This document shows positions 6,578 to 47,353 of a DNA stretch of 64,000 nucleotides, piece after piece. Origin of the DNA: an uncultured Clostridia bacterium (GTDB lineage Bacteria; Bacillota; Clostridia; Christensenellales; Borkfalkiaceae). The notes below the pieces were generated by a model. The model worked only from the letters and a program-made list of their open reading frames with translations. It had not been told where the DNA came from and searched no databases. The stretch spans positions 62,001 to 126,000 of the forward strand of contig CANRIK010000018.1 in assembly GCA_947630705.1 (NCBI GenBank), given 5' to 3'. How positions within the stretch are numbered: the first letter of the stretch is position 1; the number at the start of each line of letters is the position of its first letter. A program made the translations under genes and the position numbers.

Positions 6578-8017
6578 ATGAAACTTTCCGACATAATATC
6601 GAAACTTGAAATCAAGGAAATATCGGGCAATATCGATATGGAAATAGGCGGCATATCTACCGACAGCCGCACCATTAAAAAGGGCGATTTGTTTATATGC
6701 TATACGGGAAGAAATTTTGATTCCCATAAACGCATAGCCGAAATATCCTCTTCCGGCGCAGTTGCCGTAGTATGCGAACACAGACTTGAAACCGACTTGA
6801 CGCAGATAATAGTGGAGGACGGCAGAGCGCAGATTGCAAAAATCGCCCGAATATTCTATGGCTTTGCCGATAAAAATTTGAAAGTAATAGCGGTGACGGG
6901 AACGAACGGCAAAACCACAACTACATATATGCTTGCGGAAATCTTTAAGGCAAACGGGAATAAGGTGGGAGTTATAGGGACTCTCGGCATAGCTTACGGA
7001 GATAAATTTATCTCTCCCGAACTCACTACGCCCGATCCGCTGTATCTTCATTCCGTTCTTTCCGACATGTCGTTAAACGGCGTGCAGTATGTGTTCATGG
7101 AGGTTTCCGCACATGCGCTGTATTTTAATAAATTGGACGGAATACATTTCGAAGTGGGTATTTTTACAAACTGTACGCAGGATCATCTCGATTTCTTCGG
7201 GAGTATGAAGGACTATGCAAACTGCAAGAAGTCCATGTTTGAAAAGGGTAGGTGTTCCTATGCGGTCGTAAATTCAGACGACGAGTTGGGCATAGAGATA
7301 TTGAAGTCGGCGGATAACGCCGTAAGTTACGGAATCGGCAATCCGGCGGATGTCTTTGCGATAGATATTTGCGAAAAGATAGACGGAACAACCTTTGTCA
7401 TTAATTTGTTTGACGAACTGTATGAAATAAAACTTTCAATGCTCGCTTTGCATAACGTATATAACGCCATGGCTGCGGCGGCTTGCGCAAAGATTCTTGG
7501 CGTTAAAACTTCCGTAATAGCAGAGGGATTGATTAATCTCAAAAAAGTTTCTGGAAGGCTCGAAAGAGTGGCAAACTACAACGGAGCCGATATATTCGTT
7601 GATTTTGCACATACTCCCGACGGTCTTGAAAAATCACTGCAATCTTTAAAAAAACTCTGTAAAGGCAAACTCTATTGTCTGTTCGGGTGCGGAGGCAACC
7701 GCGACAGAACGAAGAGACCCATTATGGGTGCGGTTGCCGCAAAATATGCCGATTTTTGCATAATCACTTCCGACAATCCTCGCTACGAAGAACCTTTCGA
7801 CATTATTTCCGAAATAGTCGAAGGAATAAAACCTTTCGGAGCAAAATATGTGACTGTTACCGAAAGAGACGTCGCTACGGAATATGCCGTGCGCCTGCTT
7901 GAAAAGGGCGATATTCTGCTCGTTGCGGGGAAAGGAGGAGAGCATTATCAGGATATTATGGGTATAAAACACAGCTATGACGACAATACAGTTATAAAAC
8001 AAATAATCGGCGACTAA
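6578..8017 (+). CDS. murE: UDP-MurNAc-tripeptide synthetase (meso-DAP type)
   Basis: ATP-dependent ligase that adds the third residue to UDP-MurNAc-L-Ala-D-Glu in the cytoplasm. It has 479 residues with the three Mur-ligase domains: an N-terminal UMP-binding domain with S-T-D-S-R, a central ATPase with P-loop G-T-N-G-K-T-T-T (from 108) and the T-T-P-D-P substrate loop, and a C-terminal domain. The C-terminal Asp399-Asn-Pro-Arg402 motif contacts meso-diaminopimelate and separates DAP-adding from lysine-adding MurE. The wall should therefore contain meso-DAP. It ends directly against the mraY start with no spacer. A murF gene would normally come next but is absent. Confidence 0.97.
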   Translation: MKLSDIISKLEIKEISGNIDMEIGGISTDSRTIKKGDLFICYTGRNFDSHKRIAEISSSGAVAVVCEHRLETDLTQIIVEDGRAQIAKIARIFYGFADKNLKVIAVTGTNGKTTTTYMLAEIFKANGNKVGVIGTLGIAYGDKFISPELTTPDPLYLHSVLSDMSLNGVQYVFMEVSAHALYFNKLDGIHFEVGIFTNCTQDHLDFFGSMKDYANCKKSMFEKGRCSYAVVNSDDELGIEILKSADNAVSYGIGNPADVFAIDICEKIDGTTFVINLFDELYEIKLSMLALHNVYNAMAAAACAKILGVKTSVIAEGLINLKKVSGRLERVANYNGADIFVDFAHTPDGLEKSLQSLKKLCKGKLYCLFGCGGNRDRTKRPIMGAVAAKYADFCIITSDNPRYEEPFDIISEIVEGIKPFGAKYVTVTERDVATEYAVRLLEKGDILLVAGKGGEHYQDIMGIKHSYDDNTVIKQIIGD

Positions 8018-33610: not shown

Positions 33611-34831
33611 ATGGAAAAGAAGATTAAAAAAGTAGTTCTTGCTTATTCCGGCGGCCTCGACACGTCGATAATTATTCCTTGGCTCAAAGAAAATTACGAC
33701 GGTTGCGAAGTTATAGCTGTGTCGGGCGACGTAGGACAGACGACCGAGTTGGAAGGTCTTGAAGAAAAAGCGAAGAAAACCGGCGCTTCAAAATTATACA
33801 TACTCGACTTGAAGAAGGAGTTTATCGAGGATTACATTTATCCTACGATGAAAGCCGGAGCCGTATATGAAAACAAATATCTTTTGGGAACGTCGTTTGC
33901 TCGCCCCGTAATTGCAAAAAGAATAGTTGAAATTGCAAAAAAAGAGGGAGCAGACGCCATCTGTCACGGTTGTACGGGAAAGGGCAACGATCAGGTGCGT
34001 TTCGAACTCACAATCAAGGCTTTCGCTCCCGAAATGAAGATTATTGCTCCTTGGAGAATCTGGGATATTAAGAGTCGCGACGAAGAGATAGATTATGCGG
34101 AAGCTCACAATATTCCTTTAAAGATAAACAGAGAGACCAATTATTCCAAGGATAAGAATTTGTGGCATCTTTCACATGAGGGTCTTGACCTCGAAAATCC
34201 TGCAAATGAACCCGATTACGATAAGATTCTCGAACTCGGCGTGTCGCCTTGGAAGGCTCCCGATAAACCGACCTATATAACCATTCATTTTGAAAAGGGA
34301 ATTCCCACGGCTATTGACGGAAAGAACATGGATAGCGTTTCGTTGATTGAAAAGCTGAACGAAGTCGGCGGCAAAAACGGCGTCGGACTTGTGGACTTGG
34401 TGGAAAACAGACTTGTCGGAATGAAGAGCAGGGGAGTATATGAAACCCCGGGCGGCACCATTTTATATGCCGCGCACGAACTCCTTGAATCGATATGTCT
34501 TGATAAGGCTACACAGCATTACAAGCAGTTTATCGGCATTAAATACGGTGAACTTGTCTACGACGGTCAGTGGTTCACGCCTCTGCGCGAAGCGCTTGAC
34601 GCTTTCGTTGACAAGACGCAGGAAACTGTAACCGGCGATGTAAAACTTAAAATTTACAAAGGCAACATAATCAATGCCGGAATTACTTCGCCCTATTCTC
34701 TTTACAGCGAAGATATAGCTACTTTCGGTGAGGATAACTGCTATAATCAGTTGGATTCGCAGGGATTTATAAATCTTTTCGGGCTGCCGATAAAAGTCAA
34801 AGCTCTTCTCGACAGCAAAAAGTTAAAATAA
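33611..34831 (+). CDS. argG: Argininosuccinate synthase
   Basis: Condenses citrulline and aspartate using ATP. The 406 residues carry the PP-loop A-Y-S-G-G-L-D-T-S (about 10-18), the A-R-P-V-I-A-K region, [13 protein letters not shown] and G-V-Y-E-T-P-G-G. It is the first gene of the arginine operon and ends directly against argC. The partner argininosuccinate lyase (argH) is not in the window, although it often follows argG. Confidence 0.97.
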
Positions 34832-35764
34832 ATGTATAATGTTTTTATTGACGGCAAGGACGGTACTACCGGACTTCAAATATATGAGAGATTGGGTAAG
34901 CGAAAAGACGTAAATCTGATCACTCTGCCGGAGGACAAGCGTAAAGACGAAAAATACAGAGCCGAATGTTTGAATTCGTCGGACATAAGTTTTTTGTGTC
35001 TGCCGGACGAGGCGGCAAAGCAAGCCGTTTCGCTGGTAAAAAATCCCGAAGTGCGAATTATCGACGCTTCGACTGCGCATAGAACAAATCCCGAATGGGT
35101 ATACGGCTTCCCCGAAATCTCGGCGAAAAGAAGAGAGGAAATAGCCGGAACCAAACGTCTTGCCAATCCGGGTTGCTATGCTACGGGATTTATTTCGATT
35201 GTTGCGCCCCTTGTAAAGAAAGGTCTTGTTTCGCCCGATTATCCGTTCGTTGCTCAGGGAATTTCCGGCTATTCGGGAGCGGGTAAAAAAGCAATCGCAA
35301 TTTATGAAAGCGAGCAGAGGGACGCCGAATTCGATTCACCTCGGCATTATGCGCTGGGGCTTGCACATAAACATTTGCCTGAAATGGTAAAAGAGTGCGG
35401 ATTGAATCATCGCCCGATATTTACTCCCGTAATCTGTGATTTTTATTGCGGAATGACCGTTACAGTACCGCTTTATATCGCATTAATGAACAAAAAGGCC
35501 GATTATAATAGCGTAAGAGAGTTTTTTACAGAGTACTATGCCAGACAGAACTATGTAAAAGTAGCCCGTAAAGAAGAGATTCCGCTCTTTTTGGCGGCAA
35601 ACAGTTTGGCCGGTACTAATTATTTAAAAATTTTTATAAACGGCAATGACGAGCAGATATTTATATCGGCGGTTCTCGATAACCTCGGCAAAGGCGCTTC
35701 GGGTGCGGCAGTGCAGAATATGAATATTATGCTCGGACTTGACGAAAGAGTTTCGTTGGATTAA
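34832..35764 (+). CDS. argC: N-acetyl-gamma-glutamyl-phosphate reductase (type 2)
   Basis: NADPH-dependent reduction of N-acetylglutamyl phosphate to the semialdehyde. At 310 residues it is the shorter type 2 form; type 1 has about 345. The N-terminal F-I-D-G-K-D-G-T-T-G-L-Q binds cofactor, F-L-C-L-P-D-E-A-A follows, and the catalytic cysteine is in A-N-P-G-C-Y-A-T-G. Q-G-I-S-G-Y-S-G-A-G-K and L-A-H-K-H-L-P-E are further type 2 landmarks. Its ATG abuts the argG stop. Confidence 0.96.
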   Translation: MYNVFIDGKDGTTGLQIYERLGKRKDVNLITLPEDKRKDEKYRAECLNSSDISFLCLPDEAAKQAVSLVKNPEVRIIDASTAHRTNPEWVYGFPEISAKRREEIAGTKRLANPGCYATGFISIVAPLVKKGLVSPDYPFVAQGISGYSGAGKKAIAIYESEQRDAEFDSPRHYALGLAHKHLPEMVKECGLNHRPIFTPVICDFYCGMTVTVPLYIALMNKKADYNSVREFFTEYYARQNYVKVARKEEIPLFLAANSLAGTNYLKIFINGNDEQIFISAVLDNLGKGASGAAVQNMNIMLGLDERVSLD

Positions 35765-35765
35765 A

Positions 35766-36983
35766 ATGAGTTTGATTGAAATTGACGGCGGAGTCTGCGC
35801 GCCTATCGGATTTAAAGCCGGCGGCGTTCATTGCGGAATCCGCAAAAATAAAACCAAAAAAGACTTTGCGTTGATTATCAGCGAGGTGAAGGCTTCTGCT
35901 GCCGGCGTGTATACGAGCAATCTTGTGAAGGGCGCGCCGGTTGTGGTGACAAAACAGCATCTCTTTGACGGATATGCGCAAGCAATAGTATGCAACAGCG
36001 GCAATGCAAATACATGCAATGCCGACGGTATTCAGATAGCCGAAGGTATGTGTTCGCTCGTCGAAAGAGTCAGCGGCATAAGATCGGAAGACGTTATTGT
36101 GGCGTCCACGGGCGTAATCGGTCAGAAACTCGATATAGGTCCTATGGCCGATTGCATCGATAAATTGTACGAATCGCTCGGCAATAACAGTAAAGACGCC
36201 AATGAAGCCATTATGACTACCGATACCGTTCCCAAGTCCGTTGCCGTTCAATTCATTTTGGGAGACAAAGTGTGTCGTATCGGCGCCATCGCAAAGGGTA
36301 TAGGAATGGTATGTCCCAATATGGCTACCAATCTGATATTTCTGACCAGCGATGTTGCTATTTCGCCTGAAATGTTGCAGTCCGCGCTCTCCGAGGACGT
36401 CGGTTCTTCTTTCAACATGATAAGCGTAGACGGAGATCAGTCCACCAACGATACGTGCTGCATACTTTCCAACGGCCTTGCGGAAAACGAAAAAATCGTG
36501 AGTGCAGACGGCAATTATAAAGTTTTTAAAAGAGCTTTGCATTATTGCACCGTCAAATTGTCTAAAATGATAGCCAAAGACGGGGAAGGCGCCACAAAGT
36601 TGATAGAATGTAACGTCAAGGGTGCAAAGAGCGTTAAAATGGCAAAGACAGTCGCTAAGACCATAATCAAATCCTCTCTTGTAAAGGCGGCAATGTTCGG
36701 TGCGGATGCCAACTGGGGAAGAGTTCTCTGTGCAATAGGTTATTCCGGGGAGAAAATCGACCCTTTCAAAATAGACGTTGATTTCAAGTCGAAGAAGGGT
36801 ATTCTTCCCGTTTGCAGACAAGGTTACGGAGTGGATTTTTCAGAGGATTTTGCAAAAGTCGTTCTTTCGGAAGACGAGATAAAGATAAACGTAAATCTTA
36901 ATCTCGGAGCAAGTTCCGCCGTAGCGTGGGGTTGCGATCTTACTTACGATTACGTAAAGATTAACGGAGATTACAGAACATAA
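35766..36983 (+). CDS. argJ: Bifunctional ornithine/glutamate N-acetyltransferase
   Basis: Transfers acetyl groups from N-acetylornithine to glutamate, giving the recycling version of arginine synthesis; some ArgJ enzymes also use acetyl-CoA. From the ATG at 35766 it has 405 residues. The proenzyme is self-cleaved between Ala187 and Thr188 in C-P-N-M-A-T-N-L, the new N-terminal Thr being the nucleophile. T-T-D-T-V-P-K and D-G-D-Q-S-T-N-D-T are further conserved blocks. The final A-W-G-C-D-L-T-Y-D-Y-V is characteristic. Only one base separates it from argC. An in-frame start 27 bases upstream lies inside argC and is less likely. Confidence 0.96.
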   Translation: MSLIEIDGGVCAPIGFKAGGVHCGIRKNKTKKDFALIISEVKASAAGVYTSNLVKGAPVVVTKQHLFDGYAQAIVCNSGNANTCNADGIQIAEGMCSLVERVSGIRSEDVIVASTGVIGQKLDIGPMADCIDKLYESLGNNSKDANEAIMTTDTVPKSVAVQFILGDKVCRIGAIAKGIGMVCPNMATNLIFLTSDVAISPEMLQSALSEDVGSSFNMISVDGDQSTNDTCCILSNGLAENEKIVSADGNYKVFKRALHYCTVKLSKMIAKDGEGATKLIECNVKGAKSVKMAKTVAKTIIKSSLVKAAMFGADANWGRVLCAIGYSGEKIDPFKIDVDFKSKKGILPVCRQGYGVDFSEDFAKVVLSEDEIKINVNLNLGASSAVAWGCDLTYDYVKINGDYRT

Positions 36984-36986
36984 AAG

Positions 36987-37835
36987 ATGGATAAGCAGGA
37001 GCAGGCGGCCTTTCTTATTGAGGCTATGCCTTATATTAAAAAGTATTTTAATAAAATTCTCGTTGTAAAATACGGCGGCAACGCCATGATAGACGAAAAT
37101 CTTAAAAGTTCTGTCATGCGCGATTTGGTCGTTTTGAATTTGCTCGGGATAAAAGTTGTGCTTGTCCATGGCGGCGGACCCGAAATAACCGCTACGATTG
37201 AAAAAATGGGCAAGGAGTCCGTATTTGTGAACGGTTTGAGGTATACGGACGAAGAGACCGCCGAAATTGTGCGCATGGTGCTTGCCGGAAAAGTAAACAA
37301 AGCTCTCGTTGACTTGTTGGAGAGGAACGGCGGCAGTGCCGTAGGACTTTGCGGACAAGACGGTCATATGCTTAAATGCGAAAAGATGGACGAAAACCTC
37401 GGTTTTGTCGGAAACGTTGTCTCGATAGATACAAAGATTGTCACCGATTTGCTTGATTTGGGTTATATCCCCGTAATTTCTACGGTCGGATACGACGACG
37501 AGGGCAATATATATAATGTAAACGCGGACACTGCGGCGGCAGCCATTGCCGGAGCTTTGAACGCCGAAAGTCTCATTCTCATGACAGACATAAAGGGGTT
37601 GCTTGAAAATAAAGACGATCCGTCGAGTCTGATTAAAAAAGTTTACGTTTCCGATATTCCGGCTTTGGTAAAACAGGGAATCATATCCGGAGGAATGATT
37701 CCGAAAATCGAATGTTGTAAAGAGGCAATCCGTCGCGGAGTGAAAAAGGTGTTTATAACCGACGGACGCGTGGCTCATTCCATTTTGGTTGAAATATTAT
37801 CCGAACAAGGCAGTGGAACAATGTTCCTCAATTGA
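36987..37835 (+). CDS. argB: Acetylglutamate kinase
   Basis: Phosphorylates N-acetylglutamate, the usual arginine-controlled step. The 282 residues of amino-acid-kinase fold show K-Y-G-G-N-A-M, V-H-G-G-G-P-E-I, the D-T-A-A-A-A-I-A block, M-T-D-I-K-G-L and S-G-G-M-I-P-K. The N-terminal helix (about 1-20) before the kinase core resembles that used for hexamer formation and arginine inhibition in feedback-sensitive forms, but this is inference. A T-rich hairpin follows its stop before argD. Confidence 0.96.
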   Translation: MDKQEQAAFLIEAMPYIKKYFNKILVVKYGGNAMIDENLKSSVMRDLVVLNLLGIKVVLVHGGGPEITATIEKMGKESVFVNGLRYTDEETAEIVRMVLAGKVNKALVDLLERNGGSAVGLCGQDGHMLKCEKMDENLGFVGNVVSIDTKIVTDLLDLGYIPVISTVGYDDEGNIYNVNADTAAAAIAGALNAESLILMTDIKGLLENKDDPSSLIKKVYVSDIPALVKQGIISGGMIPKIECCKEAIRRGVKKVFITDGRVAHSILVEILSEQGSGTMFLN

Positions 37836-37865
37836 CTGATTTATTTTTAAATCAGTCTTTCTTTT
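37834..37865 (+). terminator. Terminator-like hairpin between argB and argD
   Basis: Ten-bp stem GACTGATTTA (37834-37843) with its complement (37848-37857), TTTT loop, then TTTCTTTT. The stem is AT-rich, so termination is probably partial and would lower expression of argD and the genes after it. Confidence 0.6.
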
Positions 37866-37881
37866 AATAAAAGGAGAATTC

Positions 37882-39048
37882 ATGAATAAGTCTGAAATAA
37901 TAAAGGACGACAAAAATTTTATTGCCAATACTTATGCGCGATTCGATATTGTTGTTAAAGAGGGACACGGAAGCAAAATAATCGACTCCGAGGGAAAGGA
38001 ATATATAGACTGCGCTACGGGCATTGGCGTAAATATATTCGGTATAAACGACGAAGAATGGAAAAAAGCCGTAATCGAGCAAATAAATAAAGTTCAGCAT
38101 GTATGCAATTTGTACTATGCACAGCCGCAGACCGAGCTTGCCAAACTTTTATGCGAAAAGACAGGCGCAAAGAAGGTGTTTTTCGGGAACAGCGGAGCGG
38201 AGGCAAACGAGTGCGCCATAAAAACGGCAAGAAAATATTCCAACGATAAATACGGCGACGGAAGATATGAAATTATAACCTTAAAGGATTCGTTTCACGG
38301 CAGAACGATTGCCACGCTCACCGCAACGGGTCAAGATGCTTTTCACCGTCATTTTGCTCCTTTTTTGGAGGGATTCAGATATGCGGAACCGAGTATGGAG
38401 GGGATACTCTCCTGTTACACCGATAAAACATGCGCCGTAATGGTGGAAGTCATTCAGGGAGAAAGCGGCGTAAACGTTCTCGAAAGTAAATTTTTGAAAA
38501 ATCTCGAAACATTCTGCAAAGAAAGAGATATACTTCTTATCTGCGATGAAGTGCAATGCGGCAACGGCAGAACGGGTCATCTGTATGCATACGAGGCGTT
38601 CGGCATTCATCCGGATATAGTAACGACCGCAAAGGGTCTTGGCGGCGGATTGCCGATAGGCGCGTGCATGCTCTTTGAAAAATGCGAACGGACGCTCGGG
38701 TTCGGCGATCACGGAACGACCTTCGGCGGCAATCCCGTAGCTTGTGCCGGCGGCGCAAGCATAATTAGACGGATAGACAAAAATCTTTTGCTGGAAGTTC
38801 AGGGCAAGGGCGCCTATTTTATGGAAAACATTTCGAAAATCTCCAAAGTGAAGGGAGTAAGCGGAATGGGACTTATGATAGGCATAGATACCGATAAACC
38901 GGCGCGTGAGGTCGCAGAGCAATGCCTTAAAAAGGGATTGATAGTCCTTACGGCGCACAAGAAGGTAAGACTTTTGCCCCCTCTCAATATAACTAAAAAT
39001 GAAATTGACGAAGCTCTCGCAATTTTGAATGAGGTGATATCGCAATGA
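37882..39048 (+). CDS. argD: Acetylornithine aminotransferase
   Basis: PLP-dependent transamination of N-acetylglutamate semialdehyde to N-acetylornithine. The 388 residues belong to class III aminotransferases, with N-S-G-A-E-A-N-E for cofactor phosphate, the S-F-H-G-R-T block, C-D-E-V-Q-C-G-N-G-R-T-G and the PLP lysine in T-T-A-K-G-L-G-G-G. AAAGGAG lies at good spacing before the ATG. Overlaps argF by 4 bases. Some ArgD enzymes also serve as succinyl-DAP aminotransferase in lysine synthesis, which cannot be judged here. Confidence 0.95.
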   Translation: MNKSEIIKDDKNFIANTYARFDIVVKEGHGSKIIDSEGKEYIDCATGIGVNIFGINDEEWKKAVIEQINKVQHVCNLYYAQPQTELAKLLCEKTGAKKVFFGNSGAEANECAIKTARKYSNDKYGDGRYEIITLKDSFHGRTIATLTATGQDAFHRHFAPFLEGFRYAEPSMEGILSCYTDKTCAVMVEVIQGESGVNVLESKFLKNLETFCKERDILLICDEVQCGNGRTGHLYAYEAFGIHPDIVTTAKGLGGGLPIGACMLFEKCERTLGFGDHGTTFGGNPVACAGGASIIRRIDKNLLLEVQGKGAYFMENISKISKVKGVSGMGLMIGIDTDKPAREVAEQCLKKGLIVLTAHKKVRLLPPLNITKNEIDEALAILNEVISQ

Positions 39049-39950
39049 AACATTTACTCAAATTACAGGATTTGACAAGAGAAGAAATACTGTCTATTCT
39101 GAATCTTGCCGACCAGCTCAAATACGAGCGCAATCACGGCATAATCAACGACAGTTTAAAAGGTAAAAAACTGGGTATGATTTTCCAGAAGTCTTCCACA
39201 CGTACGAGAGTATCTTTTGAAACGGGTATTTATGAATTGGGCGGCTACGGAATGTTCTTATCCAGTCATGATTTACAGATCGGCAGAGGCGAGCCGGTCG
39301 AAGATACGGCTCGCGTGCTTTCGCGCTATCTCGACGGAATAATGATCAGAACGTTTGCGCAAAAAGAAGTGGAAGATCTTGCAAAATACGGCTCGATTCC
39401 GGTAATAAACGGATTGACGGACTATGCGCATCCCTGTCAGGTTCTTGCAGACCTTATGACTATTCGCGAATATAAAGGCAGTTTCAAAGATCTGAAACTC
39501 ACTTATGTGGGCGACGGCAACAATATGGCCAACAGCTTGATAGTCGGAGCCGTCAAACTCGATATGGAAATCAATATAGCTTGTCCGGAAGGTTATGAAC
39601 CCGATGCGCAGATTGTCAAGTGGGCTCACGAAAACGGCAACTTGACGATAACTCGCAGCGTAGAAGATGCTATAAGAGCTGCCGATGTGCTGTATACCGA
39701 CGTATGGGCTTCCATGGGTATGGAGAACGAAAAGGTTAAGCGCGAACATGATTTTGTCGGTTACCAGATAAACTCTTCCAACATTAAGAACGCCAAGAGC
39801 GACGTTATGGTTATGCATTGTCTGCCGGCTCACCGCGGAGAGGAGATAACAGCGGAAGTCTTTGAAGCGCATGCAAATGAAATTTTCGACGAGGCGGAAA
39901 ACAGATTGCATGCACAGAAGGCCGTAATGGTCAAATTGATGAAAAAATAA
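39045..39950 (+). CDS. argF: Ornithine carbamoyltransferase
   Basis: Makes citrulline from ornithine and carbamoyl phosphate, the latter supplied by the carAB products encoded next. The 301 residues show the carbamoyl-phosphate signature S-S-T-R-T-R-V-S-F, H-P-C-Q-V-L-A-D, D-G-N-N-M-A-N-S and the ornithine-binding H-C-L-P-A-H-R-G. These motifs distinguish it from aspartate carbamoyltransferase. ATG overlaps the argD stop by four bases. Confidence 0.97.
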   Translation: MKHLLKLQDLTREEILSILNLADQLKYERNHGIINDSLKGKKLGMIFQKSSTRTRVSFETGIYELGGYGMFLSSHDLQIGRGEPVEDTARVLSRYLDGIMIRTFAQKEVEDLAKYGSIPVINGLTDYAHPCQVLADLMTIREYKGSFKDLKLTYVGDGNNMANSLIVGAVKLDMEINIACPEGYEPDAQIVKWAHENGNLTITRSVEDAIRAADVLYTDVWASMGMENEKVKREHDFVGYQINSSNIKNAKSDVMVMHCLPAHRGEEITAEVFEAHANEIFDEAENRLHAQKAVMVKLMKK

Positions 39951-39960
39951 GGGTTTTTAT

Positions 39961-41034
39961 ATGAAAAAGGAAAAAGCATATTTAACACTTAAAAACGGCA
40001 AACAATTTGTCGGTTACAGATTCGGCGCAAAAGGCGAAATGGTAGGCGAACTTGTTTTTACCACAGGTATGACCGGATATATCGAAACTCTTACCGACCC
40101 CAGCTACTACGGGCAGATAGTGACGCAGACTTTTCCGCTTATAGGCAACTACGGAATGATTACGCCCGATTGCGAATCCAAAAAACCGTGGGTTTCCGCC
40201 TATATAGTCCGCGAACAGTGCGTGGAACCCTCCAATTTCAGGAGCGAAGGCACGCTTGATAAATTTTTGAAAGAGCATAACGTAATCGGTCTGTACGGCA
40301 TAGATACGCGCGAGCTCACAAAAATAGTCAGAGAGGCCGGCGTAATGAACGCGGCAATCACTTCAAAACCGCTTGTCGATTTTAGCGATGTCGATAAATT
40401 TATAATAAAAGACGCGGTAAAGAGCGTTACCTGCAATCAGGTTGAATATTACGGTGATCCAAACGGACTTAAAGTTGTCGTATGGGATTTCGGCGCGAAG
40501 GAAAATATAGTTAGGGAGCTCGTAAAAAGAGGTTGTTACTGCATAAAAGTACCGTCGTTTTATACGGCGGAACAGATAATGGATATAGGTCCGGACGGTT
40601 TAATGCTCACAAACGGCCCCGGCGACCCCTCCGAAAACGTGGAAATTATAGAAAACATTAAAAAGCTCGCCGGAAAACTTCCGATATTCGGAATTTGTTT
40701 GGGGCATCAGTTGTTTGCTCTTGCAATGGGCGGCAAGACCAAAAAGATGAAATACGGACATAGGGGAGCCAATCAGCCTGTAAAAAATCTCGAAACCGGC
40801 AGAGTGTACATTTCAAGCCAGAATCACGGTTATGAGGTTATATCTTCGAGCGTTCCGAACGGGAAGCTCACTTACGTCAATGCAAACGATAACACGTGCG
40901 AAGGATTTGATTATCCAGAGCTCAACGCATATACCGTGCAGTTCCACCCCGAGGCGTGCGGCGGACCGCACGACGCGTCGTTCCTTTTTGATAAATTTAT
41001 TTCAAATATAAAGGAGAGCAAGCGCAATGCCTAA
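39961..41034 (+). CDS. carA: Carbamoyl-phosphate synthase small (glutaminase) subunit
   Basis: Hydrolyses glutamine and passes ammonia to CarB. The 357 residues have the CarA-specific N-terminal domain (F-T-T-G-M-T-G-Y-I-E-T-L-T-D-P-S) and a class I glutamine amidotransferase domain. The nucleophile Cys246 lies in G-I-C-L-G-H-Q, and the catalytic His-x-Glu in Q-F-H-P-E. N-G-P-G-D-P-S is also present. Its end overlaps carB by 8 bases. Location after argF suggests that this synthetase is tuned to arginine demand, although it would also serve pyrimidines. Confidence 0.97.
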   Translation: MKKEKAYLTLKNGKQFVGYRFGAKGEMVGELVFTTGMTGYIETLTDPSYYGQIVTQTFPLIGNYGMITPDCESKKPWVSAYIVREQCVEPSNFRSEGTLDKFLKEHNVIGLYGIDTRELTKIVREAGVMNAAITSKPLVDFSDVDKFIIKDAVKSVTCNQVEYYGDPNGLKVVVWDFGAKENIVRELVKRGCYCIKVPSFYTAEQIMDIGPDGLMLTNGPGDPSENVEIIENIKKLAGKLPIFGICLGHQLFALAMGGKTKKMKYGHRGANQPVKNLETGRVYISSQNHGYEVISSSVPNGKLTYVNANDNTCEGFDYPELNAYTVQFHPEACGGPHDASFLFDKFISNIKESKRNA

Positions 41035-44000
41035 AAAAGAGGACATAAAAAAAGTACTTGTAATTGGTTCGGGCCCGATAGTTATCGGACAGGCGGCAGA
41101 ATTCGATTATGCCGGAGCGCAGGCGTGTCGAGTGCTCAAAGACGCCGGAATCAACGTTGTTTTATGCAATTCGAATCCCGCGACGATAATGACGGACAGC
41201 GCACTTGCGGACGAAATTTATCTTGAACCTCTTACGGTCGATACGTTAAAGAGAATAATAATCAAAGAGCGACCCGACAGCTTGCTTGCTTCGCTCGGCG
41301 GTCAGACCGGACTGACTCTCGGCTGTCAGTTGGCAAAATCCGGATTCCTTGACGAATACGGCGTCAAATTGATAGGCGTAAATCTCGAATCCATAGACAG
41401 GGCGGAAGACCGCGAGCTGTTCAAAGAGACCATGCAAAAAATCAATCAGCCCGTTGTTCCGTCCGATATAGCTTATTCCGTTGACGAGTGCGTTGCGATA
41501 GCCGAAAAAATAGGATATCCCGTAATCGTCCGTCCGGCATATACGCTCGGCGGCGCGGGCGGCGGCGTCGCAAAAGACGAAGAAGAGTTGAGGTTGATAT
41601 CGCATAACGGGTTAATGCTCTCGCCAATTACTCAGGTTTTGATTGAGAAGTATATAGGCGGTTGGAAAGAAATAGAATTCGAAGTTTTGCGCGACAGCGT
41701 CGGAAATGTGCTTACGGTATGCTCTATGGAGAATTTCGATCCCGTAGGTATTCACACGGGAGATTCCATAGTTATTGCACCGGCGGTCACTCTTTCCGAT
41801 AAAGAATATCAGATGCTTCGTACCGCTTCGCTTAATATAATTTCCGAACTTAAAATAGAGGGAGGATGTAATTGCCAATTTGCGTTGAATCCCGATTCTT
41901 TTGAATATTCGGTAATAGAAGTAAACCCGAGAGTTTCGCGTTCTTCGGCGCTCGCGTCCAAAGCGACCGGATATCCCATTGCAAAAGTAGCGACAAAAAT
42001 TGCTCTCGGATACACTCTCGATGAAATTAAAAACGACGTTACCGGAAAGACGTACGCCTGCTTCGAGCCTACGCTCGACTATGTGGTTGTAAAACTTCCG
42101 AAGTGGCCGTTCGATAAATTTTTATACGCAAAGCGCAATCTCGGGACGAGAATGAAGGCTACGGGCGAAGTTATGGCAATAGGCACAGGATTTGAAATGG
42201 CCATAATGAAAGCCGTGCGCGGAGCCGAAATTTCGGTGGGTACATTGAATATGCCCAAAATTGCCGAATTGTCAGATGACGAAATATATGAAAAACTTCA
42301 TGAATTGACTGACGAAAGGCTGTTCGTCGTTTATCAGGCAATCAAGCGCGGCATTTCGATTGACGAGATATATAAGATTACGAAAATAGACGAGTGGTTC
42401 TTATATAAACTGAAAAATCTTGCCGATTATGAAAATGAAATTATCGGTAAGCCCATTACCAGAGAACAGTATATCCGAGGTAAGAAACTCGGATATCCAG
42501 ATACGGAGCTCAAAAAACTCTCTGGCAATAATTTGCCCATGCACCGCAACGCTGTATTTAAAATGGTTGATACATGCGGAGCCGAATTTGCCGCTCAAAC
42601 TCCGTATTTCTATTCGACATACGACGAAAAGGAGCACGACGAAGCAAAACCTTTTGTCGCTCAAAGCAAGAAAAAGAGAATCATTGTTATCGGCTCCGGC
42701 CCTATAAGAATAGGTCAGGGAATTGAATTTGATTATTCTTCCGTTCACTGCGTTTGGGCATTGAAGCGTTTGGGTTATGAAGTGATAATAATCAACAACA
42801 ACCCCGAAACTGTTTCAACCGACTTCGACACTGCGGACAGGCTCTACTTTGAGGCTTTGACGCCCGAAGACGTGCAGAACGTAATAGATATGGAAAAGCC
42901 TTACGGCGTCGTTATAACGTTCGGCGGACAGACGGCAATAAAATTATGCGGATATCTCGATAAAAAGGGAGTAAAAATACTCGGCACTCCGGCAGACAGC
43001 GTAGACCTTGCGGAAGATAGGGAGAGATTTGACGAACTTCTCGAACAGTTTGATATAGCTCGTCCGAAGGGACTTACGGTTATGAGCAAGGAAGAAGCGG
43101 TACACGCCGCCGAGACCTTGGGCTATCCCGTACTTTTGAGGCCTTCCTATGTCATAGGCGGTCAGAATATGACAATCGCCTTTACTCAAAACGATATCGA
43201 AAGATATATGGATGTCATTCTTGCGCAGAAGATTGAAAATCCCGTGCTCTGCGATAAATATCTCATGGGTACGGAACTTGAAGTTGACGCGATTTCAGAC
43301 GGAGTGGACGTTCTTATCCCGGGCATAATGCAACATATCGAGCGTGCCGGCGTACATAGCGGAGACTCGATAGCGGTATATCCTCCTTACAATTTGAGCG
43401 ACGCAATGTTAAAAAAGGTTGTAGATATATCCGAAAAACTTGCCATAGCTCTGAAAACAAAAGGACTTATAAACATTCAGTATCTAATATATCATAACCA
43501 GCTCTATGTAATTGAGGTAAATCCGAGAGCGTCGAGAACTATTCCGTATATTTCAAAAGTTACGGGCGTGCCGATGGTTGACCTTGCCACGAAAATTCTG
43601 ATGGGAGCAAAACTGAAAAAATTGGGCTACGGAACAGGTTTGTATCCGACTTCTCCGTATGTGGCCGTTAAGGTTCCGGTATTTTCTTTTGAAAAACTTA
43701 ATGACGTAAACTCGCAGTTGGGACCCGAAATGAAATCTACCGGAGAAGTGCTCGGCATCGGTAAGACCATAGAGGAAGCGCTTTTCAAGGGTCTTGTTTC
43801 GGCAGGCTTCAATATGAAACATCCCGATAAACAGCATCCTTCCGGCATTTATTTCACTATTAACGATCAGGATAAATTTGAAATAGTTAATATAGTCAAG
43901 AAGTTTGCGGATTTGGGGCTTACTTTATATGCGACAAAGGGAACGGCCAACGTTATAAGAAGTTTGGGTCTGGAATGTACGGAAGTTGCAAGACTTTCTA

Positions 44001-45070
44001 CCAACGACGAGATTTTCAAACTTATGGACGCAGGTAAAATCGACTATATAGTGTATACCGGAAAAACAGATATTGAGTCGATAACCAACTACATGAGCCT
44101 GCATCACCATGCGATTTTACTTGGAATAACCGTTCTCACGTCTCTTGATACAACAAATGCTCTTGCCGACGTCATTGCCGGCAGGTATAATCAGTTCAAT
44201 ACCGAACTTGTAGATATCAACAACCTCCGAACGGAAAAGCTGAAACTTAAATTTTGCAAGATGCACAGCTGCGGCAACGATTATATATTCTTCAATAATA
44301 TGGATAATACAATTACTTGCCCCGAGTCGCTTGCGATCAATTTCTCCGACAGGCATTATGCGATAGGAGGCGACGGGATAGTCATGATGGAAAGGTCGGG
44401 AGTAGCCGACGCAAAAGTTCGCGTATTCAATCGCGACGGCAGCGACGGCGGACTTGCCGCAAATCCCGTCAGATGCGTAGCAAAATATCTTTTCGATAAT
44501 AATCTTGCGCCGGAGAACATTAAAGTCGAAACTTGTAACGGTGTCAAAGAATTGAACGTAAGTTCATTCAACGGCAAGGCAAGTTCAGTATCGGTAAATC
44601 TCGGTAAACCGATATTGAGAAGACAGGAAGAAATTCAAACAGCCGGAATCACCGACATAATAAGCGGTCAGTTGCAGAACATGTATTCGGTGACCGAAGT
44701 AAATCTCGGTAACGATCATCTTGTAATTTTCTGCGATAAAGTCGAAGACGTCGATTTGGAGGAACTTGGCCAAAAACTTTGCGATGCCGGATATATAAAG
44801 GACGGAACATACGTCGAGTGCGTCAGAATAGTAAATAACGTTACATTAAAAATGAGGGTATGGGAGAAGCGCAACGGCGAAACGCTTGCATGCGGTACCG
44901 CTGCGGCGGCCGCTTCGGTTGCGGCTGTCGAAAACGGCCATTGTCTGTATGACGCATTGATTACCGTCAAACTGAAAGGCGGAGATTTATTTGTGAACTA
45001 TATCAGCGACGGCAATGTAATTCTTGACGGACCCGTTAAACTTTCATTTGAGGGATTGATTGAAATCTGA
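41027..45070 (+). CDS. carB: CarB fused to a DapF-like domain
   Basis: One 1347-residue reading frame with two complete parts. Residues 1 to about 1070 are carbamoyl-phosphate synthase large subunit: two ATP-grasp halves, each starting with an I-G-S-G-P-I block (Y-A-L-G-G-A-G-G-G-type loops included), and the C-terminal MGS-like allosteric domain. Residues about 1074-1347 are a full-length diaminopimelate epimerase fold, beginning K-F-C-K-M-H-S-C-G-N-D and ending with the second cysteine loop E-T-L-A-Cys1289-G-T. The first catalytic cysteine loop, normally M-C-G-N-G, reads L-Ala1144-A-N-P. Other ligand residues differ: Tyr1262 where Asn is expected, and Lys1281 for Arg. There is no internal start or ribosome site before the DapF part. 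CarB activity is likely; DAP epimerase activity is doubtful. Confidence 0.93.
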   Translation: MPKKEDIKKVLVIGSGPIVIGQAAEFDYAGAQACRVLKDAGINVVLCNSNPATIMTDSALADEIYLEPLTVDTLKRIIIKERPDSLLASLGGQTGLTLGCQLAKSGFLDEYGVKLIGVNLESIDRAEDRELFKETMQKINQPVVPSDIAYSVDECVAIAEKIGYPVIVRPAYTLGGAGGGVAKDEEELRLISHNGLMLSPITQVLIEKYIGGWKEIEFEVLRDSVGNVLTVCSMENFDPVGIHTGDSIVIAPAVTLSDKEYQMLRTASLNIISELKIEGGCNCQFALNPDSFEYSVIEVNPRVSRSSALASKATGYPIAKVATKIALGYTLDEIKNDVTGKTYACFEPTLDYVVVKLPKWPFDKFLYAKRNLGTRMKATGEVMAIGTGFEMAIMKAVRGAEISVGTLNMPKIAELSDDEIYEKLHELTDERLFVVYQAIKRGISIDEIYKITKIDEWFLYKLKNLADYENEIIGKPITREQYIRGKKLGYPDTELKKLSGNNLPMHRNAVFKMVDTCGAEFAAQTPYFYSTYDEKEHDEAKPFVAQSKKKRIIVIGSGPIRIGQGIEFDYSSVHCVWALKRLGYEVIIINNNPETVSTDFDTADRLYFEALTPEDVQNVIDMEKPYGVVITFGGQTAIKLCGYLDKKGVKILGTPADSVDLAEDRERFDELLEQFDIARPKGLTVMSKEEAVHAAETLGYPVLLRPSYVIGGQNMTIAFTQNDIERYMDVILAQKIENPVLCDKYLMGTELEVDAISDGVDVLIPGIMQHIERAGVHSGDSIAVYPPYNLSDAMLKKVVDISEKLAIALKTKGLINIQYLIYHNQLYVIEVNPRASRTIPYISKVTGVPMVDLATKILMGAKLKKLGYGTGLYPTSPYVAVKVPVFSFEKLNDVNSQLGPEMKSTGEVLGIGKTIEEALFKGLVSAGFNMKHPDKQHPSGIYFTINDQDKFEIVNIVKKFADLGLTLYATKGTANVIRSLGLECTEVARLSTNDEIFKLMDAGKIDYIVYTGKTDIESITNYMSLHHHAILLGITVLTSLDTTNALADVIAGRYNQFNTELVDINNLRTEKLKLKFCKMHSCGNDYIFFNNMDNTITCPESLAINFSDRHYAIGGDGIVMMERSGVADAKVRVFNRDGSDGGLAANPVRCVAKYLFDNNLAPENIKVETCNGVKELNVSSFNGKASSVSVNLGKPILRRQEEIQTAGITDIISGQLQNMYSVTEVNLGNDHLVIFCDKVEDVDLEELGQKLCDAGYIKDGTYVECVRIVNNVTLKMRVWEKRNGETLACGTAAAAASVAAVENGHCLYDALITVKLKGGDLFVNYISDGNVILDGPVKLSFEGLIEI

Positions 45071-46197
45071 TGATTTATCTTGACAATGCGGCCACAACAA
45101 AGCCGGACGAAGAGTGCATTAAAAGAGCCGAAGAATTTCTTCATAACAGTTATTTTAACCCTTCCGCATTATATGCGGAAGGTTATAATATACAGCTGTC
45201 ATTGCGTCGGGCCAAAACCGGAATACTGTCAACTATTTCCATGAGCGATGATTTTGACTTGATCTTTACTTCATGCGGAACGGAAGCCGACAATCAGGCC
45301 ATATTTTGCGGAGGGAAAAGAGGCAACATCGTTACGACCTACGGCGAACATTCGGCTGTATTTGCGGCGGCGAAAGAGCTATCGACTCGCGGCGTCGAAG
45401 TCCGATTTGCGCCTTTAAATAGCGACGGCAGCGCAGACATCGAAAAACTTATTGAGCTTGTTGACGATAAGACGTCTCTTGTCTCCGTAATACACGTCAA
45501 TAATGAAACGGGCGCGATAAACGATATCGCCTCCATTGCCGCATGCATAAAGAGGAAGAATCCTCGGACTTTGTTTCATTCCGACGGTGTTCAGGCTTAC
45601 GGCAAAATACCTTTTATGCTTACAAAAGATATAGATTTATATTCTGTGAGCGCGCATAAAATAGGCGGAGTAAAAGGTTGCGGAGCGCTGTTCAAAAAGA
45701 GAAATCTGGCTTTGAAGCCATATATTTACGGCGGCGGTCAGGAACAGGGATTGAGAAGCGGTACGGAGAATGTGTTCGGAATCAAAAACTTTGAGTTTGC
45801 CGCTGTCAAAAAATACTGTAAAATCGAGGAAAACCATAAAAAAATCCGCCTACTGAACGATTTGCTCTGGGAAAGATTAGATAAATCTTTATTTACGAGA
45901 ATTTCTCCCGAGAATAACTCGCCTTATATCCTTACGGTCGGAGCGGACGGACTTCGCGGCGAAACCATTATGCATGAAGCTGACGACGCAGGTCTGATTT
46001 TAGGTACGGGGTCTGCATGTTCGTCCAATGAGAAGAAACGGCGTTCGCGCGTAATACTTGCCTGCGGAATATCCGAAAGTCTTGCGGACGGAATTTTAAG
46101 GATCAGTTTTTCATCGGAAAATACAGTTGAAGAAACCGAAAGCGCAGCCGAAATTTTGAATAGAATTGTCAAAAACAGAAAAGAGAAAATGGCATAA
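45070..46197 (+). CDS. Cysteine desulfurase (NifS/IscS family)
   Basis: PLP enzyme that takes sulfur from cysteine as a protein-bound persulfide. The 375 residues have Y-L-D-N-A-A-T-T, the histidine in Y-G-E-H-S-A, H-V-N-N-E-T-G, the PLP lysine Lys197 in S-A-H-K-I-G-G, and the persulfide Cys317 in G-S-A-C-S-S. Pairing with thiI immediately downstream suggests it feeds sulfur to tRNA 4-thiouridine or thiazole synthesis rather than general Fe-S assembly. The start overlaps the carB stop by one base, tying a sulfur-transfer pair to the arginine operon. Confidence 0.94.
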   Translation: MIYLDNAATTKPDEECIKRAEEFLHNSYFNPSALYAEGYNIQLSLRRAKTGILSTISMSDDFDLIFTSCGTEADNQAIFCGGKRGNIVTTYGEHSAVFAAAKELSTRGVEVRFAPLNSDGSADIEKLIELVDDKTSLVSVIHVNNETGAINDIASIAACIKRKNPRTLFHSDGVQAYGKIPFMLTKDIDLYSVSAHKIGGVKGCGALFKKRNLALKPYIYGGGQEQGLRSGTENVFGIKNFEFAAVKKYCKIEENHKKIRLLNDLLWERLDKSLFTRISPENNSPYILTVGADGLRGETIMHEADDAGLILGTGSACSSNEKKRRSRVILACGISESLADGILRISFSSENTVEETESAAEILNRIVKNRKEKMA

Positions 46198-46198
46198 T

Positions 46199-47353
46199 AT
46201 GGAAAAAGTTATCATAATCCGATATTCCGAAATACATCTGAAAGGCAAGAACAGAGGATATTTTGAACGTGTTTTCGGGATAAATATCGAAAAATCTCTT
46301 AAAGGAATAAAACATGAAGTCCGCCGCAGAAGCGGCAGATATCTTATTGAATGTTTTGAAGAAAATCAAACGGAAATGATTCTTCAAAAGCTCAATAAGG
46401 TTTTCGGAATTCATTCATACAGCGTCGCGCTTAAAGTTCCTACGCAAATGGATAGGATATTCGAAGCAGCGAAGAGCGTATGTCGCGATTGTGGCTCTTT
46501 TAAAGTTGAAACTCACAGGGCAGATAAAACATTTCATCTCAATTCAATGGAAATAAGCGCAGAAATAGGGGGCAGACTTCTTTCTGCGAATAAAAATCTT
46601 AAAGTAGACGTCCATAATCCGCAATTTGTTATTGATATAGATGTAAGAGAAGACGGAACGACTTTGGTTTTCGGCAATTACTATAAAGGCGCCGGAGGCA
46701 TGCCCGTAGGAACGGCTGGGAAGGGGCTTTTACTGTTATCTGGCGGTATAGACAGCCCCGTGGCCGGACACATGATAGCCAAAAGAGGTATGAATATCGA
46801 ATGTATTCATTTTCATAGTTATCCGTACACCAATTTGCAGGCTCGCGACAAGGTAATCGAACTTGCAAAAGTTCTTTCGGAATATTCCTGCGGCATTAAA
46901 CTTCATATCATATCGGTAACTCATATTCAGGAAGAGATCCATAAAAACTGTAACGCAGAATATATGGTTACGCTTTTAAGACGTTTCATGATGAGAATTG
47001 CCGAAAAGGTTGCTATTAAGATAGGCGCACAGTGCATTATAACGGGGGAGAGCCTCGGACAGGTGGCAAGCCAGACTATCGAAGGCATTACGGCGTCAAA
47101 CTCCGTAATAGAGAAGTTACCTATATTGAGACCTTTGTGCGGTTTTGACAAGGATGAAATAATAGAGCGCAGCAGAAATATAGGCGCATTTGATATCTCG
47201 ATACAGCCGTATGAGGATTGCTGCACGGTCTTTCTTCCGAAACATCCCGTTATCAAACCGGATTTGAAAACGATTGAAGAAGAAGAGGCAAAAATTGACG
47301 TAGAAAAATTAATTTCCGAGGCTTTGAACTCACGCGAAACCTTAAATTTCTAA
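46199..47353 (+). CDS. thiI: tRNA 4-thiouridine synthase ThiI
   Basis: Adenylates U8 of tRNA and inserts sulfur; in many bacteria also takes part in thiamine thiazole formation. From the ATG at 46199 it has 384 residues: a ferredoxin-like and THUMP region (about 1-165), then the PP-loop L-L-S-G-G-I-D-S-P (about 178-186). G-E-S-L-G-Q-V-A-S-Q-T and R-P-L-C-G-F-D-K-D-E are also diagnostic. It lacks the C-terminal rhodanese domain of the enterobacterial protein, as is usual in Firmicutes, and so relies on the upstream desulfurase. One base separates it from that gene. Confidence 0.95.
   Translation: MEKVIIIRYSEIHLKGKNRGYFERVFGINIEKSLKGIKHEVRRRSGRYLIECFEENQTEMILQKLNKVFGIHSYSVALKVPTQMDRIFEAAKSVCRDCGSFKVETHRADKTFHLNSMEISAEIGGRLLSANKNLKVDVHNPQFVIDIDVREDGTTLVFGNYYKGAGGMPVGTAGKGLLLLSGGIDSPVAGHMIAKRGMNIECIHFHSYPYTNLQARDKVIELAKVLSEYSCGIKLHIISVTHIQEEIHKNCNAEYMVTLLRRFMMRIAEKVAIKIGAQCIITGESLGQVASQTIEGITASNSVIEKLPILRPLCGFDKDEIIERSRNIGAFDISIQPYEDCCTVFLPKHPVIKPDLKTIEEEEAKIDVEKLISEALNSRETLNF

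Follow-up and report, generated by a model that had tools for sequence, protein, structure and literature searches.

The DAP epimerase DapF (TIGR00652, PF01678) depends on two catalytic cysteines, located in the motifs M-C-G-N and A-C-G-T, and closes on DAP like a clam according to the available text of PMC5296763 and PMC12039745. For C. glutamicum DapF with bound DAP, the accessible part of the former source describes a catalytic sub-site formed by Glu212, Gly84, Asn85, Gly222 and Thr223 and a recognition sub-site formed by Asn74, Asn159, Asn194 and Arg213, and the variants C83A, N194A and R213A are each reported there to be almost inactive (PMC5296763). The E. coli variant DapF(C73&217A) is inactive and still binds and stimulates RppH in the available text of PMC4227774, and a DapF can thus influence a partner even after its catalysis is abolished. 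PddB, a diaminobutyrate racemase, is a DapF relative that acts on another substrate with altered Asn64, Asn157, Asn190 and Arg209 and works with two cysteines, as described in the accessible portion of PMC8225329. Residue numbers for DapF are given below in the H. influenzae numbering used in that portion and were transferred by alignment columns.

The window, which is the whole stretch of 64,000 nucleotides from an uncultured Clostridia bacterium (Borkfalkiaceae) that was analysed, encodes a complete CarB, including the C-terminal MGS domain. Unlike CarB as represented by TIGR01369, this protein carries an additional C-terminal DapF-like domain of about 275 residues. The domain shares with DapF the fold, the length, the second catalytic cysteine (Cys217) and the equivalents of Asn11, Asn64, Asn75, Asn157, Glu208, Gly218 and Thr219, but it has Ala in place of both the first cysteine and Gly74, Tyr for Asn190 and Lys for Arg209, and it is fused to CarB. 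As in the E. coli DapF-RppH system, at least in the part of PMC4227774 that is available, a DapF is predicted to control another enzyme without needing epimerase activity; there, however, a working enzyme acts on a separate partner, whereas here the connection is covalent and a catalytic residue is missing. The DapF-RppH complex 6d13 is among the structures matched by the domain in both the sequence and the Foldseek searches. The altered distal recognition residues are a further likeness to PddB, which differs in having two cysteines and in being no part of CarB (PMC8225329, accessible portion). No published description of the fusion was found among open-licence PMC papers. On balance, the tail is likely a pseudoenzyme derived from DapF that is retained on CarB in an accessory and perhaps ligand-responsive capacity, a role inferred from the comparisons below. 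The analysis adds four findings: the genome has a free DapF, the fusion is found across the class, it has been inactivated repeatedly where another DAP route exists, and the dead domain is under selection.

The fusion gene, its active site and the source of meso-DAP

The features of the locus are as follows.

33611..39950, + strand: arginine cluster argG-argC-argJ-argB-argD-argF, directly upstream of carA-carB
39961..41034, + strand: carA, overlapping the start of carB by 8 nt
41027..45070, + strand: carB-dapF fusion gene, 1347 aa, one intact frame
41027..44170, + strand: CarB part, residues 1-1048, including an MGS-like domain at residues 952-1037
44231..45067, + strand: C-terminal DapF-like putative pseudoenzyme domain, from profile and structure matches, with the TIGR00652 match at residues 1075-1344
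44447..44467, + strand: degenerate first catalytic loop G-G-L-A-A-N-P, residues 1141-1147
44810..44821, + strand: Y-V-E-C, with Tyr1262 replacing Asn190 and a new Cys1265 replacing an otherwise invariant Phe
44864..44869, + strand: Glu1280, equivalent to Glu208 and kept, and Lys1281 replacing Arg209
44891..44893, + strand: Cys1289, the second catalytic cysteine, kept

The fusion is the final gene of the cluster argG-argC-argJ-argB-argD-argF-carA-carB. Downstream, at 45070-47353, lie a cysteine desulfurase gene, whose start overlaps the carB stop, and then ThiI. The whole fusion protein reaches 1404.8 bits against the CarB profile TIGR01369 (cut-off 1027), and the tail domain alone reaches 195 bits against the DapF profile TIGR00652 (cut-off 114.65). 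Since the fusion is the only CarB above the family cut-off in a profile search of the genome, it presumably feeds both arginine and pyrimidines. The tail aligns unambiguously to DapF, with 17 distinct PDB sequences matched and B. anthracis DapF as the best of them (2otn, E 9.3e-49). The predicted fold is likewise that of DapF: Foldseek gave 2otn_A as the best match (E 1.7e-28) for an AlphaFold model of moderate quality, with a mean pLDDT of 76 and low values in parts of the domain's N-terminal half.

The initial annotation had described the loop L-A1144-A-N-P, Tyr1262, Lys1281 and a kept Cys1289, and every one of these residue numbers was reproduced in the intact 1347-aa frame. The codons are GCC for Ala1144 (nt 44456), GCA for Ala1145, TAC for Tyr1262 (nt 44810), AAG for Lys1281 (nt 44867) and TGC for Cys1289 (nt 44891). 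Ala1144 occupies the position of the catalytic Cys73 and Ala1145 that of Gly74, and Asn1146 keeps Asn75. Only the second of the two catalytic cysteines is left, and two members of the distal recognition sub-site (Asn64 and Asn157) are kept, with Tyr1262 and Lys1281 standing in place of the other two. All three positions at which a single mutation to alanine nearly abolishes the activity of C. glutamicum DapF differ here, being Ala, Tyr and Lys. The expectation that the domain should be unable to run the two-base reaction holds as far as alignment can tell, with the equivalents of the cysteine, Asn190 and Arg209 changed and the C. glutamicum mutants near-inactive, and the domain is very probably not a working DAP epimerase.

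Column counts over the fused domains and 117 active DapF rows revealed no replacement cysteine aligned with the lost first base, and the alignment with characterised DapF, which had been proposed as a check, placed no other cysteine at the first catalytic position. Two cysteines considered as substitute bases were ruled out: the one in V-R-C is present in 117/117 active DapF rows too, and the one in S-C-G-N-D occurs in 47/117 active rows beside both catalytic cysteines. In the same genus, the Phe three residues after Asn190 has been replaced by Cys in 26 of 27 domains. This cysteine, Cys1265 in the window (44819-44821), is found in none of the 62 other cysteine-lost domains and in none of the 117 active rows. 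Together with the replacement of Asn190 by an aromatic residue, this means that the aromatic residue has effectively shifted to the Asn190 position.

The altered loop is a trait of the lineage. Alanine stands at the first-cysteine position in all 27 same-genus domains scored and Cys1289 is kept in all of them; the fused pieces of two further genomes of the genus (G019, G020) are cut by contig ends and lie outside this set. Among the separately listed named loci, two (L064 and L065) have Ser instead of Ala. Across the fused domains, the position is encoded by several different Ala, Ser, Gly and Cys codons, which argues against a sequencing slip. A sequencing error or a single-strain pseudogene was rejected on the basis of the 27 alanines and the varied codons, and the earlier statement that the change is not a one-base error is upheld by these points and by the intact frame. 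Three same-genus genomes (G009, G018, G196) contain a free DapF but gave neither a CarB over the cut-off nor a fused domain; they may be arginine/pyrimidine auxotrophs or may have assembly gaps.

From a MurE with the meso-DAP signature at 6578, it had further been concluded that meso-DAP must come from elsewhere. The motif D-N-P-R, the meso-DAP mark of MurE, was found there, and the genome (G000) indeed holds a second, canonical and free DapF with M-C-G-N-G and A-C-G-T at G000:C1:89696-90529. Its gene belongs to a row dapF-pyrG-dapL (G000:C1:86626-90529, locus L098), in which dapF lies 1.9 kb from dapL and the DapL scores 500 bits. With pyrG, which encodes CTP synthase, this row again mixes DAP and pyrimidine genes. 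The suggested genome search for a second dapF, ddh and dapL thus returned the free dapF and dapL. Of the proposed alternative sources, another DapF is present, whereas Ddh gave no match in a profile search of the genome and was rejected as its source of meso-DAP.

Spread of the fusion and repeated loss of the catalytic cysteine

The 44 named loci with a relative of the domain are all Clostridia, Clostridiales or Eubacterium records, including two of Candidatus Coproplasma. An order-wide sample of 297 genomes contains the fused form in at least 94, with a few frames stopping at contig ends, and many further families show the fusion among 393 genomes sampled across the class (40 of those were fetched). 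On quick trees, the fused and free labels change 2 times in the smaller one, from which four free rows with a wrong or short extracted frame were dropped, and 4 times in the larger one, where 2 of the changes are forced. Given so few changes, the fusion arose once or a few times. Two free-standing DapF-like proteins, L105 (G025) and L104 (G035), are apparently without the normal pair of catalytic cysteines.

The loss of cysteines was mapped on a quick, unrooted tree of 203 rows with the 14 active-site columns left out. This tree was built without eight long-branch or incomplete rows (L097, L102-L105, L233, L293, L296) and without short rows and named loci, except for L067, L068 and L074. In the best of the quick trees, the lost domains fall into 7 clades, and its well-supported branches force at least 5 changes. 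The largest clade comprises 74 rows from many families, including the genus of this bacterium, and mostly shows a change from Cys to Ala. The small clades consist of two rows in which the second cysteine is lost, six M-S-G-N rows, three single rows and six V-S/A-G-N rows. The catalytic cysteine has therefore been lost repeatedly, and nearly always it is the first one. Although the trees are unrooted, the direction is taken as loss and not gain because both cysteines are normal in DapF at large.

These losses mostly coincide with another source of DAP. The sampled genomes provided 152 fused domains, of which 151 were scored (L296 is unscored and named loci are not counted): 62 keep both cysteines and 89 are without at least one. 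In TIGR00652 searches, a free DapF accompanies 76/89 cysteine-lost domains compared to 4/62 intact ones, and the fused domain is the only DapF in 58 of the 62 intact cases. Among the 61 free rows, six with a wrong frame or no cysteine pair were placed outside the active set. Fisher's test gives p 1e-23 for free DapF against cysteine state, a value that ignores relatedness; a phylogenetically controlled paired test gave 1.9 pairs the same way and 0.1 the opposite way, with only 5 usable pairs, at which significance is unreachable. By clade, a free DapF or Ddh is present in 17/17 rows of the six small clades and in most rows of the 74-row clade, where three named loci are outside the test and G001, G007, G267, G609 and G454 are exceptions.

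Eight of the 13 lost domains without a free DapF come from genomes with Ddh (G223, G258, G317, G204, G058, G362, G463, G414). No Ddh was found in G001, G007, G267 and G609, and G454 was outside the Ddh search. A contig begins shortly before dapL in both G007 and G267 (dapL at positions 92 and 2008); with the gene order of the present genome, all or most of dapF would fall beyond the contig end, and it may therefore be missing from these assemblies. G001 (87 % complete) and G609 are the two exceptions outside these explanations. The fused domain of G609 (L293, G609:C34:118810-119634) has a very degenerate site in which the first cysteine is kept and the second lost. The Ddh search covered 34 of the 58 intact domains that have no free DapF beside them, and placed 12 in genomes with Ddh and 22 in genomes without. 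Since 12 domains are intact beside Ddh and 4 beside a free DapF, a second route permits the loss of the cysteine without compelling it.

Surviving site residues and selection on the dead domain

The pattern of surviving residues differs between this genus and its relatives. Outside the genus, Cys73 is kept in 5 % of the 62 lost domains, Asn11, Asn64, Gly74, Asn75, Asn157, Asn190, Glu208, Arg209 and Gly218 in 90-98 %, Thr219 in 89 % and Cys217 in 79 %, the second cysteine being absent from 13 of the 62. The eleven site residues other than Cys73 are retained at 93 % on average, compared to 88 % for other positions conserved in active DapF. Judged from this contrast, it is mostly the chemistry that would be gone in these domains outside the genus, and the predicted substrate site that is retained. 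Within the genus (27 rows), Asn11, Asn64, Asn75, Cys217 and Gly218 are kept in 100 % and Asn157 in 89 %, whereas Asn190 is kept in 4 %, Arg209 in 11 % and Gly74 in 0 %, with Asn190 changed to Tyr or Phe and Arg209 mostly to Lys. The site average is 0.69, against 0.72 for other conserved positions. Because the recognition sub-site is largely gone and the site average is no better than that of the other positions, DAP sensing is disfavoured in this genus, which we read from its residues as a second stage in which DAP recognition would be lost or changed.

The dead domain is under purifying selection. Its dN/dS ranges from 0.024 to 0.113 in 9 close pairs, some of which share members, compared to 0.004-0.030 for CarB residues 1-930 in the same pairs, so the domain evolves faster than CarB; far pairs were saturated and left out. 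Both copies are present in 20 genomes of the genus, and over the resulting 190 pairs the mean amino-acid difference is 0.338 for the dead domain and 0.293 for the free DapF, which corresponds to a factor of 1.15, and the dead domain is the less diverged copy in 36/190 pairs. For two other genera of the family (g19 and g21, 8 genomes), the values are 0.239 for the dead domain and 0.360 for the free DapF. The C-terminus is complete in all 89 lost domains, a count in which shortened domains are under-represented, as domain matches were used to collect the set. Such conservation would not be expected of a useless tail, in which a stop codon would do no harm. A residue essential for catalysis has thus been lost while the remainder of the domain is under selection, and the pseudoenzyme option named in the initial annotation is well supported by both.

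Proposed origin, role and meaning

An active DapF would have become the tail of CarB, most simply when a stop codon was lost in a carB-dapF gene row, which is the probable origin. In G355:C57 and G543:C68, carB and dapF are adjacent with one stop codon between them, which is likely the arrangement before the fusion. An unfused carB-dapF-dapL row also occurs at G283:C4:41605-46741, with a fused, cysteine-lost carB-dapF on another contig of the same genome, and G125 has an unfused carB adjoining dapL as well as an intact fusion. In lineages with a free DapF or Ddh, the fused copy has repeatedly lost a catalytic cysteine, and presumably two-base epimerisation with it, and selection has kept the dead domain as part of carbamoyl-phosphate synthase. 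The order of events would accordingly run from fusion through cysteine loss to remodelling of the site. That the dead domain has been kept repeatedly where another DAP route exists suggests that it now helps or regulates its host enzyme.

We consider it quite probable that the domain is kept for a role other than epimerisation. The most likely mode would be that of a ligand-responsive accessory domain behind the allosteric MGS domain, making use of the clam-shell closure of DapF, and an alternative action at this place would be to hold the oligomer together. Relatives with a retained substrate site may respond to DAP itself. With the distal recognition half remodelled in this genus, the ligand here would probably be another amino acid, or the role may now be structural. 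Ligand sensing as the retained role is plausible, with the chances somewhat against it.

Several other explanations compete with the accessory pseudoenzyme. A purely structural role, in which the domain, descended from the dimeric DapF, has become part of the CarB fold or of its oligomer and cannot be removed, without any sensing of a ligand, is possible but rather unlikely. It would suit the remodelled distal pocket of this genus, the lack of C-terminal shortening in the lost domains, with the under-count mentioned above, and the fused state of CarB in 6/6 family-f1 genomes with a CarB over the cut-off. Outside the genus, however, the loss is focused on one residue, and a structural domain has no obvious reason to keep the ligand contacts better than other conserved positions. 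It is improbable that a different enzyme has evolved, a racemase or lyase for another amino acid in which Cys1289 works alone or with Cys1265. The equivalents of Cys217, Asn11, Asn64 and Asn75 in all 27 same-genus rows, the restriction of Cys1265 to this genus and the precedent of PddB with its altered recognition residues would fit such an activity, but PddB has both cysteines, and the second one is missing in a fifth of the lost domains outside the genus (13/62).

Two further explanations are weaker still. A neutral remnant on its way out would fit the pace at which the domain evolves, which exceeds that of CarB and slightly exceeds that of the free DapF beside it; the dN/dS values of the close pairs, the lower divergence of the dead copy in g19 and g21, the spread of the 74-row clade across many families and the lack of early ends make this very improbable. 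That the domain is still a DAP epimerase with another residue as its first base is hardly credible: it passes the DapF family cut-off, but no replacement cysteine aligns, two further contacts are altered, a canonical DapF is present in the genome, and C. glutamicum DapF tolerates the C83A change so poorly in the available text of PMC5296763.

For the accessory pseudoenzyme, the relatives display possible stages on the way from an enzyme: separate neighbouring genes, an active-looking fusion as the only DapF, a fusion minus one cysteine with the substrate site kept, and this genus with a remodelled site. Such a series allows one to test whether catalysis is dropped while binding stays for regulation. 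It also implies a warning for annotation, as these proteins score above the DapF cut-off and the fused domain could be mistaken for the DAP epimerase of the cell. Should the domain sense an amino acid, carbamoyl-phosphate synthase would have a new allosteric input. A more specific version, which we hold to be doubtful, is that CarB gained a DAP sensor several times by the killing of a fused DAP epimerase, and that the sensor has been re-tuned to another amino acid in this genus. If true, DAP, as a precursor of the cell wall and of lysine, would act directly on carbamoyl-phosphate synthase, and the making of peptidoglycan and lysine would be coupled to the supply of arginine and pyrimidines.
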